Notes under the pieces: model-generated
Database searches by the model: none
What the model was told of the DNA's origin: nothing
Seen by the model: the letters and a program-made list of their open reading frames with translations, nothing else
Shown: positions 5,642-39,189 of the stretch, one piece after another
Position numbering within the stretch: the stretch's first letter is position 1
Layout of the letters: each line of letters begins with the position of its first letter
Position numbers and translations under genes: made by a program
Origin: Naumannella cuiyingiana
GTDB lineage: Bacteria > Actinomycetota > Actinomycetes > Propionibacteriales > Propionibacteriaceae
Assembly: GCF_013408305.1 (NCBI RefSeq)
Contig: NZ_JACBZS010000001.1
Location: forward strand, 3,162,001-3,226,000
Length of the DNA stretch: 64,000 nucleotides
Reading direction: 5' to 3'

Positions 5642-5679
5642 GCCGCCGGGTCGGTCGAGCGGCCGGCACCTGCCCTCGT

Positions 5680-5731
5680 GTCGTCAGTTATCGCCCCCTG
5701 GCGGGGTCGGCAGGCGGCGATACCTCACGAA
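5680..5731. repeat. Degenerate long palindrome, related to the 32653-32727 element
   Basis: Imperfect inverted repeat downstream of pheT: left arm 5680-5698 and right arm 5713-5731, with 15 of 19 positions complementary and a 14-nt loop. The arms contain AGTTATCGCCCCC and the loop GGCGGGGTCGG. Both resemble the arms (AGTTATGCCCGC) and loop (CGGGCTCGG) of the perfect palindrome at 32653-32727, and the right flank AGAGAGG resembles its CGAGAGG. It may also work as a terminator for pheST, though no T-run follows. Confidence 0.6.
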
Positions 5732-5792
5732 GAGAGGGTGGGTCTTGGCGGGTAGCCACCGGCCCGTCGGACGGGTCGGGGCATCATGAGGC

Positions 5793-16495: not shown

Positions 16496-18022
<1,527 letters not shown>

Positions 18023-18105
18023 AGCCCATTGGCGACACGATGTGTCGTCCAAGCGCTTCGTACCGAGTCGTTCGTTCTCGGCGAGGCAGGCTACGGAATG
18101 TGGAA

Positions 18106-18119
18106 CATTGACCATTAAG
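18106..18119 (+). other. 3' arm of the 16S rRNA processing stem
   Basis: CATTGACCATTAAG, complementary at 12 of 14 positions to 16326-16339. Confidence 0.55.
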
Positions 18120-18300
18120 CCGAGTCGAAGCATCGCGTCAGTACAACCCGGGCCCTCGTGGCACAGGAGTGGAACCTCGCGGAGCGGAGCTCGGCCCGGG
18201 CACGCTGTTGGGTCCTGAAGGGTCGGTCGCGTCAGCAACCACTCTTCGCGGACCAGGTATGGGAGGCCGGCAACGGCCGAACACCTGGTACCGCCCGTAT

Positions 18301-18316
18301 CTTGAGAACTTCACAG
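18301..18316 (+). promoter_or_regulatory. Second boxA-like element, in the 16S-23S spacer
   Basis: CTTGAGAACTTCACAG; differs from the leader copy at 16306-16321 in two positions only. Immediately precedes and partly overlaps the 23S processing-stem arm. Confidence 0.6.
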
Positions 18317-18336
18317 TGGACGCGAGCATCTTTGTA
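18312..18336 (+). other. 5' arm of the 23S rRNA processing stem
   Basis: Twenty-five bases beginning CACAGTGGACGCG that are complementary, with one bulged A, to 21445-21470 on the other side of the 23S gene. This is the expected RNase III substrate that frees pre-23S RNA. Confidence 0.85.
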
Positions 18337-18340
18337 GTAA

Positions 18341-21443
<3,103 letters not shown>

Positions 21444-21444
21444 T

Positions 21445-21470
21445 TACAAAGATGCTACGCGTCCACTGTG
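21445..21470 (+). other. 3' arm of the 23S rRNA processing stem
   Basis: Pairs with 18312-18336; one extra A is bulged. Lies in the 23S-5S spacer. Confidence 0.85.
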
Positions 21471-21516
21471 GGGTTCCCGAGATACGGTCGGGAACATCCG
21501 ATCACATCTCAATAGA

Positions 21517-21635
21517 GTTTCGGTGATCATGGCGAGAGGGAAACACCCGGCTCCATTCCGAACCCGGAAGTTAAGCCTCTCAGCGCCGATGGTACTGCAC
21601 GGGGGACCGTGTGGGAGACTAGGACGTCGCCGGAC
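21517..21635 (+). rRNA. rrf: 5S ribosomal RNA
   Basis: About 119 nt starting GTTTCGGTGATCATGGCG and ending GACGTCGCCGGAC, with the conserved CCGAACCCGGAAG and GCGCCGATGGTACTGC segments. Third gene of the rrn operon. Confidence 0.97.
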
Positions 21636-21687: not shown

Positions 21688-22131
21688 CTGGGCGTTTTCG
21701 TGCCGCGTAGCCTCGACGGCTTCGCGCGAACTGCCAGCCGCGAGCTGAACCGGCAGCCGCGAGCGTTACTCGTGCCGCGTCTGCCGATTGGGCTCGCGGC
21801 TGCCGACCTGGCCCGCGGGTGCCGACTGAGTCCGCGTCTGCCGGGTGCGCCCGCGTGATGTGGCGTGAACCGCAGCCGCGAGCAGAACCGGCAGCCGCGA
21901 GTGTTATTCGTGCCGCGTCTGCCGGTTCGGCCTGCGGTTGCCGACCGGGCCCGCATGTGCGGGCTGGGTTCGCGGGTGCCGACTCGCTTCGTGGGTGCCG
22001 GCTGAGTCCGCGCCTGCCGGCTGAGTCCACGGCTGTCGGTTGGGTTCGCGGCTGTCGGGCTGGCCCGGGTGGGGCGGTCAGGCCGGGGTTGGTTTGCGGG
22101 CCGGCTTCGCATGCACAACGATGGGTAGGTG
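21688..22131. other. Non-coding interval with the 19-bp array
   Basis: 444 bases between the rrn terminator and the next gene. No convincing coding sequence; open frames here are repeat-driven and have no recognisable domain. Nearly all of it is the repeat array described at 21735-22073. Confidence 0.7.
21735..22073. repeat. Array of 19-bp units in both orientations
   Basis: Forward unit consensus about CCGACTGGGTCCGCGGCTG: three and a partial copy at 21784-21855 and eight at 21922-22073. Reverse-complement units (for example CAGCCGCGAGCTGAACCGG) occur in pairs at 21735-21772 and 21873-21910. Each reverse pair is followed by the identical 11-nt spacer TGCCGCGTCTG and then the forward units, so a block of about 138 bp is repeated. 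Units are imperfect. Nineteen is not a multiple of three, so the array does not encode a peptide repeat. Confidence 0.85.
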
Positions 22132-31724: not shown

Positions 31725-31728
<4 letters not shown>

Positions 31729-32639
31729 ACCCGCCCTCCCTGGTGCGGGCCTTTCTCGACCATCTCGTGGTCGAGCGGGGGCTGTCCGGGCACACCGTTG
31801 GTGCGTACCGGCGCGATCTGGACCGCTACCTGGCGCACCTGGCCGGGTCCGGGATCGACGATGCCGCCGCGATCGGCCCCGCGGAGGTCGCCGGATTCGC
31901 CCGGGTGCTCGCCGAGCCGCCACCCTCCGCCGGACCGCCGCTCGCGCCGGCCAGCATTGCCCGCGCGGTTGCCGCGGTGCGCAGCCTGCACCGGTTCGCC
32001 GCGCAGGAGGGGATCACCCCCGGCGACCCGGCGGCCACCATCAAGCCGCCGAAGCTGCCGCGCCGGCTGCCGAAGGCGCTGGCCGTCGCGGAGGTGCAGA
32101 CGCTGCTGGCCGCGCCGGACACCTCGACAGTCGCGGGGCTGCGCGACGCCGCGCTGCTGGAGCTGCTCTACGGGACGGGGGCCCGGGTCTCCGAGATCAC
32201 GGCGCTGGACGTCGACGACGTGACCGCGGCCCTGGAGGGTGGGGGACTGCGGTTGATCGGGAAGGGCGACAAGGAGCGGGTGGTGCCGCTGGGCAGCTAT
32301 GCCCGGCAGGCCGTCGAGGCATGGCTGGTGCGTGGTCGCCCGGCGTGGGCGGGCAGCGTACCCGCCCTGTTGTTGAACAGCCGCGGCACGCGGCTCACCC
32401 GCCAGCTCGCGCACAACGTGCTCGCCGCGACGGGGGCCCGGGCGGGCCTCGCCGGGCGGGTGACACCGCACGCCCTGCGGCACTCCTATGCCACCCACCT
32501 GCTGGACGGCGGCGCCGATGTCCGGGTCGTCCAGGAACTGCTCGGCCACGCCTCGGTGACGACCACCCAGCTCTACACCCTGGTCACCGTCGACCAGCTC
32601 CGCGACGTCTACCTGAGCGCCCACCCCCGGGCGCGGTGA
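31725..32639 (+). CDS. xerD: Site-specific tyrosine recombinase XerD
   Basis: 304 residues. N-terminal SAM-like core-binding domain (about 1-95) and catalytic domain with R in [10 protein letters not shown] in [24 protein letters not shown] in [13 protein letters not shown] and the tyrosine nucleophile there. Resolves chromosome dimers at dif with XerC. Placement with scpAB and a ParA is the normal actinobacterial context. GTG start overlaps the Nudix stop by four bases. Confidence 0.93.
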
Positions 32640-32652
32640 CCTCTCGCCCCCG

Positions 32653-32727
32653 CCTCTCGATTGTTTCCGTAGTTATGCCCGCTATCGGGCTCGGTTGGCG
32701 GGCATAACTACGGAAACAATCGAGAGG
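32653..32727. repeat. Perfect long palindrome, 30-bp arms with 15-nt loop
   Basis: Left arm 32653-32682 (begins CCTCTCGATTGTTTCCG) and right arm 32698-32727 are perfect reverse complements; loop TATCGGGCTCGGTTG. The arms are much richer in A/T than the genes on either side. It lies 13 bp after the xerD stop and 9 bp before the ParA start chosen here. No T-run follows. Related to the imperfect palindrome at 5680-5731. Confidence 0.92.
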
Positions 32728-32736
32728 GGCGGACTG

Positions 32737-33831
32737 ATGGCTCGCCTCGGGTCCCGGGTGGCGGCGCGGCGAAGCGGTAGGGTGAAACCGATCGCAGGAT
32801 CTGGCTGGCAGGGGCGTGATCCGGTGGATGTCGGACCCGGGCTCGCCCCGGGGGAAGGCGGTACGTTGCAGACGGTGGGCGAGCAGACGGTGGGCGAACG
32901 GGCCGGCGACGGCGCCGAGCCGATCCCAGCGGGCAGCGGCGATCCGATCGCCAAGCTGATCGAGGCCGGCATCGGGCCGGTCGATGACGACGGGCTCGGC
33001 CCGACGGGCCGGCCGCTGCCGCATCTGCGGGCGCCCGGGCCGCCGCCGGAGGTGACGAAGGCAGTCACCATCGCCATGTGCAACCAGAAGGGCGGGGTCG
33101 GCAAGACCACGACCACGATCAATCTCGGCGCCGCGCTGGCCGAGTACGGGCGGAAGGTCCTGCTGGTTGACTTCGACCCCCAGGGTTCGCTGTCGGTGGG
33201 GCTGGGGATCAACCCCCACACGCTGCAGACCAGCATCTACAACCTGCTGCTCGACGACGAGGCCGACGTCGACGAGGTGCTCACCGCGACCTCGGTGCCG
33301 GGGATGGACCTGCTGCCCAGCAACATCGACCTGTCGGCCGCGGAGATCCAGCTCGTCTCCGAGGTGGCGCGTGAGTACACCCTCGGCCGGGTGCTCGACC
33401 GGTTCCGGGACTCCTACGACGTGATCTTGATCGACTGCGCCCCGTCGCTCGGCCTGCTGACGGTTAACGCACTGACGGCAGCCGACAAGGTGCTGATGCC
33501 GCTGGAGTGCGAGTACTTCGCGCTGCGTGGGATCGCGATGCTCACCGACACGATCCGCAAGGTGCAGAAGCGGCTCAATCCGGGTCTGGCCGTTCTCGGC
33601 GTGCTCGGGACGATGTACGATGCCCGAACGCTACACAGCCGCGAGGTGCTGGAGCGCGTGGTGCAGGCATTCGGCGAGCAGGTCTTCCACACCGTGGTCC
33701 GGCGCACCGTGAAGTTTCCCGAGACGACCGTCGCCGGTGAGCCGATCACCACGTACGCCTCCGCCTCGGCCGGCGCGGGATCGTATCGGACCTTGGCTTT
33801 GGAGGTATTGCAAAGATGCCACGAACAGTGA
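32737..33831 (+). CDS. ParA/MinD-family ATPase
   Basis: 364 residues from ATG 32737, which has GAGGGG upstream inside the palindrome. A shorter GTG start at 32824 (335 residues), after a TAGGGT box at 32778-32783, is also plausible. The first 110 residues are variable; then comes the deviant Walker A CNQKGGVGKTTTTINLG, switch DFDPQGSLSVGLG, and Walker B VILIDCAPSLGLL. This is the chromosomal ParA that sits next to scpA in actinobacteria, distinct from the oriC parAB pair. Overlaps the next gene by 16 nt, which ties it to that small protein. Confidence 0.88.
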   Translation: MARLGSRVAARRSGRVKPIAGSGWQGRDPVDVGPGLAPGEGGTLQTVGEQTVGERAGDGAEPIPAGSGDPIAKLIEAGIGPVDDDGLGPTGRPLPHLRAPGPPPEVTKAVTIAMCNQKGGVGKTTTTINLGAALAEYGRKVLLVDFDPQGSLSVGLGINPHTLQTSIYNLLLDDEADVDEVLTATSVPGMDLLPSNIDLSAAEIQLVSEVAREYTLGRVLDRFRDSYDVILIDCAPSLGLLTVNALTAADKVLMPLECEYFALRGIAMLTDTIRKVQKRLNPGLAVLGVLGTMYDARTLHSREVLERVVQAFGEQVFHTVVRRTVKFPETTVAGEPITTYASASAGAGSYRTLALEVLQRCHEQ

Positions 33832-39123: not shown

Positions 39124-39189
39124 CCACCCAACACTTCCTCGGTGACCCGACAGCTATAGGTGTTGGGTCACCGAGGAAGTGTTGGGTGG
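39124..39189. repeat. Perfect long palindrome, 25-bp arms with 16-nt loop
   Basis: Left arm 39124-39148 (begins CCACCCAACACTTCCTCGG), right arm 39165-39189, loop GACAGCTATAGGTGTT. It overlaps the last codons of bioN (stop at 39168) and lies between convergent genes, so it could act as a bidirectional terminator, but there is no T-run. Same layout as the 32653 element, with a different sequence. Confidence 0.9.

Follow-up and report, generated by a model that had tools for sequence, protein, structure and literature searches.

The palindrome between xerD and parA of Naumannella cuiyingiana is almost certainly a dispersed repeat, and it is very probably tied to a gene family whose products combine a predicted AbiEi-like domain with a predicted Vsr-like nuclease domain (here AbiEi-Vsr). 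Related hairpins are scattered through the genome and are paired with AbiEi-Vsr genes by both position and sequence; the encoded nuclease would bind and cut the hairpins, with movement and copying to follow. With moderate confidence, we interpret the palindrome as a REP/REPIN-like repeat in which the AbiEi-Vsr fusion nuclease takes the place of a RAYT tyrosine transposase as partner enzyme.

A long perfect palindrome in the xerD-parA spacer

The longest perfect inverted repeat (loops of up to 40 nt) in the 64,000-nt stretch of DNA analyzed here (the window) lies in the spacer between xerD (31725 to 32639, + strand), which has orthologs in 27/27 relatives and whose stop falls 13 nt ahead of the perfect arm, and parA (32866 to 33831, + strand). 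As an earlier, sequence-only reading had described, its 30-bp arms on the + strand, at 32653 to 32682 (5' arm) and 32698 to 32727 (3' arm), are exact reverse complements separated by a 15-nt loop (32683 to 32697). The 5' arm contains the conserved core ATTGTTTCCGTAGTTATGCCCGC at 32660 to 32682, and the loop, TATCGGGCTCGGTTG, is partly self-complementary. With two mismatches allowed, the stem extends into outer C-rich/G-rich flanks to give 35-nt arms (32648 to 32732) that are 94% complementary. The runner-up in the window is a perfect inverted repeat of 25 bp (39124 to 39148 and 39165 to 39189). The predicted fold energy of the xerD-parA palindrome is -71.8 kcal/mol, compared with an average of -33.3 for shuffled sequences (z = -10.9), and 0 of 200 shuffles fold as well. 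Separately, several overlapping inverted repeats of 27 to 30 nt (GCAGCCGCGAGC...) occur at 21735 to 21941 of the window, directly 3' of the rRNA operon (16499 to 21635).

Two further points of the sequence-only reading hold. The palindrome is richer in A/T than its surroundings, with 53% G+C in the arms and 71% in the window, and it is not a standard terminator, as neither arm is followed by a T-run on either strand (32728 to 32740 reads GGCGGACTGATGG on the + strand). The same reading had offered a small non-autonomous element, a REP-like unit, or a structured RNA as possible identities. The first two come close to the interpretation favored here. The third was dropped because only rRNAs reach the Rfam threshold in the window, leaving the palindrome without a curated RNA family.

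The earlier reading also assigned to the palindrome the only good ribosome site of a ParA start at ATG 32737. Codon usage and homology to the ParA N terminus of a congener place the start instead at about TTG 32866 or GTG 32875, approximately 140 nt beyond the palindrome. Because the congener (G001) N terminus, METVPGDPIAKLI..., aligns to a start near 32866 to 32875, the ribosome-site idea is unsupported; given this downstream start and the lack of any palindrome in the orthologous xerD-parA spacer of G001, a ParA leader or ribosome-site role was ruled out.

Related hairpin families are dispersed through the source genome

A search of 3.5 Mb of the source genome identified about 17 copies of this hairpin (family A), the xerD-parA palindrome included; this and the other copy numbers given below hinge on strict search patterns. 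The earlier prediction of a dispersed family with many copies is thereby borne out, and a single-copy terminator is rejected because many copies exist. The conserved part of family A is ATTGTTTCCGYAGTTATGCCCGC, and copies vary toward the loop and in the outer flanks. Eleven copies are symmetric. The other six are asymmetric: their outer arm is perfect, and their inner arm is a degenerate one common to all six (GCGGCATCAGCTACGGGAGGGAT). A separate symmetric "type B" family built on this degenerate arm was considered and discarded, since its clear matches were inner arms alone and the others resembled background, with control counts exceeding those of the pattern. The loop was expected to be conserved; loops instead differ between copies, through compensatory changes, while staying self-complementary.

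Family C (TTCGTGTCGTCAGTTATCGCC), which is related to family A, has about 16 copies, nine symmetric and about seven asymmetric. One asymmetric copy is intergenic in the window (5677 to 5732, + strand), with an outer arm TCGTGTCGTCAGTTATCGCC and a degenerate inner arm GGCGGCGATACCTCACGA. The likeness of the xerD-parA palindrome to positions 5680 to 5731, noted from the sequence alone, is thus real but indirect, as this site belongs to the related family. The second-longest palindrome of the window (39124 to 39189, CACCCAACACTTC...GAAGTGTTGGGTG) is a symmetric member of a third family, E, which elsewhere flanks a nuclease paralog (G000:C1:3448 kb). A pair of family E hairpins at 1126.2 and 1127.4 kb encloses a VOC-domain-like gene.

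No A or C copy in the source genome falls within a called gene. Among the 31 copies placed relative to genes, 29 have a gene 3' end on one side or both; 13 lie between convergent genes, 16 between tandem genes, and 2 between divergent genes. Two composite units of about 190 bp (598639 to 598830 and 2535512 to 2535690) each join an asymmetric A end to an asymmetric C end. The two ends are oppositely oriented and separated by about 100 bp, and the interiors are related, as though the units had arisen by cooperation or recombination between two nuclease families. Two family A copies (999015 to 999081 and 2562982 to 2563050) have a common flanking gene-end sequence, cgcgtcctggtctgat..., as if they had been duplicated along with a paralogous neighbor gene.

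Hairpins of the same family bracket AbiEi-Vsr genes

At two places in the source genome, one for family A and one for family C, a single gene is enclosed by two hairpins of the same family spaced about 1 kb from each other. The A-bracketed gene (G000:C1:2507243-2508199, outside the window) has a symmetric A hairpin upstream (2507076 to 2507141) and an asymmetric A hairpin downstream (2508165 to 2508227). In the downstream hairpin, the degenerate inner arm (2508165 to 2508199) codes for the final nuclease residues (end of ...LIPPVADAAVGA), and the nuclease stop codon is inside the loop. The C-bracketed gene (1240797 to 1241717) lies between C hairpins at 1240660 to 1240718 and 1241730 to 1241785. 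The two encoded nucleases are 58% identical, and both genes have lower codon usage scores than most neighbors of similar length. From by-eye naming of translations, the A gene sits beside what look like an ispE-type kinase gene and a methyltransferase gene, and the C gene beside what look like oxidoreductase and rarD-like genes. Further paralogs lie between other palindromes, namely, family D at 923.7 kb and family E at 3448 kb; for another, at 2733 kb, we found no convincing paired palindrome, only a weak match in the flank-alignment test described below.

To judge from its predicted structure, the bracketed gene encodes a fusion protein in which an AbiEi-like DNA-binding domain is followed by a nuclease domain of the Vsr/EDxHD type. 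In an AlphaFold model made with 54 homologs (pLDDT, 93.4; pTM, 0.90), residues 3 to 199 match the AbiEi antitoxin 6y8q (VIA-align Z, 11.8), and residues 204 to 303 match I-Bth0305I, an EDxHD homing nuclease (Z, 11.5), as well as Vsr (Z, 9.1). The domain assignment is based on these VIA-align Z scores together with profile matches, as Foldseek alone gave no E value below 0.001. AbiEi profiles match 42/54 family members, while REase_MTES_1575 matches 35/54 relatives and DUF559 matches 26/54; on the A and C nucleases themselves, Pfam PF18741/DUF559 stays below the cutoff. Residues E207, D239, H256, and D265 are invariant (54/54), as would be expected of an active EDxHD-type site.

Gene-hairpin pairing is widespread in actinobacteria

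Relatives of the nuclease are abundant in actinobacteria, chiefly in Arthrobacter, Curtobacterium, and their kin. To score pairing, we aligned the 350-bp upstream flank of each gene to the reverse complement of its downstream flank and called scores above 14 paired. By this measure, matching inverted hairpins are present on both flanks at 73/86 nuclease loci, compared with 5/165 other genes from the same loci (P = 1.9e-27); the remaining 13 nuclease loci have no paired hairpins by this score. Among nonsyntenic pairs, hairpin similarity tracks nuclease identity (Mantel r = 0.31; 0/2000 permutations). Three close homologs beyond the source genome (L077, L078, and L083) have a GTTATSSC-type core in their hairpins, and their outer arms are inverted at the two ends of the nuclease unit. 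At four loci (L105, L107, L116, and L144), tandem repeats of 25 to 40 bp (ACGCTATCGCAGCAATGG...) occupy both flanks in place of a single hairpin, which may be an alternative arrangement of repeats within the same system.

The hairpin type found in a genome largely follows its nuclease. GGRGTCACTT hairpins number 3 to 22 copies in seven Arthrobacter genomes whose nuclease gene they flank and 0 in the tested genomes of Promicromonospora and Curtobacterium, where other hairpins accompany the nucleases. An eighth genome (G221) has five copies, and its fetched nuclease locus, one of two paralogs (L133), carries another motif. Similarly, GAGTGAGCAGAAG hairpins flank the nuclease gene of two Curtobacterium genomes, where they number 10 and 4 copies; a third has 2 copies, and the other five genomes tested have none. 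Reversed-pattern controls for the Arthrobacter and Curtobacterium counts returned 0.

Hairpins differ in presence between related genomes

Presence specific to a strain or species, predicted from the sequence alone, was indeed observed. Besides the empty congener spacer, the family A core was not found among 36 relatives, G001 included, and the exact core had no match in a contig database outside the source genome (whose own records were possibly left out). Across 198 family genomes, symmetric GTTATSSC hairpins number 15 in the source genome and at most 1 in any other.

A closer comparison is provided by two Arthrobacter genomes, G214 and G216, which are approximately 88 to 90% identical along the compared segments. 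These genomes have in common the nuclease locus and two other dispersed hairpins. Two further G214 hairpins correspond to gaps in G216, where 13 and 17 bp replace 87 and 93 bp. Target-site duplications had also been predicted, and none is visible at these two filled/empty pairs; the indel junctions are slightly ragged rather than perfectly clean.

The congener G001 encodes three nuclease homologs but, for the hairpin type searched, has no symmetric dispersed copies; the nuclease gene is therefore not always accompanied by amplification. One of these homologs (G001:C3:263162-264079; L083 above) has an in-frame TGA and mirror-image hairpin ends on both sides, and it is probably a decaying autonomous unit.

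Hairpin symmetry and competing explanations

In the inner stem of A and C copies, complementarity is kept while the sequence changes. Across nine symmetric family A copies, both sides of the stem have changed in 12/34 pairs (21 cells), and across nine family C copies this is true of 12/31 pairs (20 cells), values reached in 0/500 shuffles for each family. One-side changes, mostly to G-U, account for 8 cells in A and 5 in C. As both-side changes outnumber one-side changes in each family, symmetry maintained at the DNA level, through a hairpin or cruciform function or through templated correction, fits better than selection on RNA.

This excess bears on the possibility that the hairpins are bidirectional terminators or mRNA 3'-end structures under selection, with the nuclease gene merely insulated by its pair. 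The very stable fold and the prevalence of gene 3' ends beside the copies would suit such a role, but a terminator would account poorly for the missing T-run, for long arms that are conserved in sequence and unique to one species, or for the match of arm to nuclease by sequence and the far greater frequency of flanking on both sides than at other genes. Together with the preponderance of both-side changes, these features make terminators an unlikely explanation.

We also regard as improbable a domesticated restriction-like or repair system in which the nuclease senses or cuts extruded hairpins, for instance in DNA that is foreign or being replicated, but does not spread them, the dispersed copies serving as marks or simply being tolerated. 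The Vsr-like fold with its EDxHD-type residues is consistent with this, as is the mainly chromosomal location of the genes (matches in 3 plasmid records and 1 phage record). By itself, however, such a system leaves unexplained why each hairpin family has multiplied in genomes with the matching gene.

It seems quite doubtful that the hairpins are operators, that is, binding sites making up a dispersed regulon of the AbiEi-Vsr protein rather than mobile DNA. The N-terminal domain has the AbiEi fold and AbiEi profile matches, and AbiEi antitoxins are reported to bind inverted repeats (PMC7319586). Against this, only 2 of the 31 copies occupy a spacer between divergent genes, the setting of shared promoters; hairpins are found downstream of the nuclease gene too; copies differ in presence between genomes; and a double-stranded operator has no need of an inner stem that stays complementary as its sequence changes. 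Ordinary MITEs, as solo ends of a classical insertion sequence with its transposase elsewhere and the AbiEi-Vsr gene as passenger, would be suggested by the outer arms that resemble terminal inverted repeats (L083 and L078) and by the composite units with A and C ends, but they are a poor candidate given that no transposase gene lies between the hairpin ends at the examined nuclease loci, that the nuclease is the recurring gene, and that target-site duplications are lacking.

A proposed mechanism and its implications

We therefore return to a REP/REPIN-like repeat with a nuclease partner. AbiEi-Vsr is the likely spreading enzyme because its gene sits between hairpins of the same family here and has its own hairpins in many actinobacteria. 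Under this proposal, the family A palindrome would be a non-autonomous repeat and the gene at G000:C1:2507243-2508199 its autonomous partner. The AbiEi-like N-terminal domain would recognize the conserved arm, as double-stranded DNA, a cruciform, or a single-stranded hairpin, and the Vsr/EDxHD C-terminal domain would nick or cut at the recognized arm. Repair or replication would then copy the hairpin to new sites after the cut, and new hairpins would survive mainly beside gene 3' ends, such as that between xerD and parA. More tentatively, the system could be a widespread form of actinobacterial selfish DNA in which the AbiEi-Vsr nuclease, not a transposase, spreads the hairpins, each nuclease lineage having a hairpin "dialect" of its own.

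Palindromes of the REP-like kind rank with the most frequent repeats in bacteria, and several of their classes (for example, the CGTC REPs) have no known partner enzyme. The present analysis links a large uncharacterized actinobacterial protein family (AbiEi-like plus DUF559/MTES_1575 nuclease) to lineage-specific hairpin repeats. If the nuclease does drive their spread, REP-like elements would have a second type of enzyme of independent origin, AbiEi-Vsr proteins would gain a testable DNA substrate, and the persistence of long perfect palindromes near gene ends in high-G+C genomes would be accounted for.

Comparison with known systems

The open-access literature searched yielded no published description of the pairing between hairpins and AbiEi-Vsr genes, nor any work joining DUF559 with inverted repeats and mobility; judged on this scope, novelty is provisional. 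A rho-independent terminator has a moderate G+C-rich stem followed by a T-run, a description that the palindrome does not fit. The N-terminal ~200 residues of the protein resemble AbiE type IV toxin-antitoxin systems in AbiEi antitoxin fold and profile matches; unlike in AbiE, a nuclease domain is fused, and no AbiEii-like nucleotidyltransferase toxin gene is adjacent at the two source-genome loci. The C-terminal domain shares its fold and the invariant E, D, H, and D with I-Bth0305I and Vsr, whereas the predicted nuclease here is coupled to an AbiEi-like domain and hairpin repeats rather than to an intron.

Like MITEs, the hairpins are small, noncoding, dispersed inverted-repeat units, and nuclease units (L083, L078, and L077) and solo copies in the source genome have terminal inverted repeats in common. 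They differ from MITEs in showing no target-site duplication, in having two ends that disperse as solo hairpins, and in lacking a classical transposase between those ends. The CGTC-tagged REPs, for which a survey reports no dedicated transposase (PMC3733652), are likewise small dispersed palindromes. CGTC, however, lies inside the family C stem and is never a tag in family A, the phyla differ, and a dedicated candidate enzyme is present here.

The closest parallel is with REP/REPIN and RAYT. REPs are short extragenic palindromes found mostly between tandem or convergent genes, and their partner gene is flanked by repeats (PMC3733652). The families described here share the dispersed extragenic palindromes, the tandem/convergent bias, the bracketed partner gene, and the paired inverted units that form longer hairpins. 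The hosts here are actinobacteria, whereas the main text of the 2013 survey names neither Actinobacteria nor Arthrobacter (PMC3733652). GTAG REPs carry an unpaired GTAG tag at the hairpin foot, which is absent here, GTAG and CGTC occurring only inside the paired stem, and the flanked gene at the A and C loci encodes an AbiEi-Vsr fusion, not a Y1/HUH RAYT. Given an enzyme with no relation to RAYTs and hairpins that lack the GTAG foot tag, we do not file this system as a member of REP/RAYT, though it appears to work like one.
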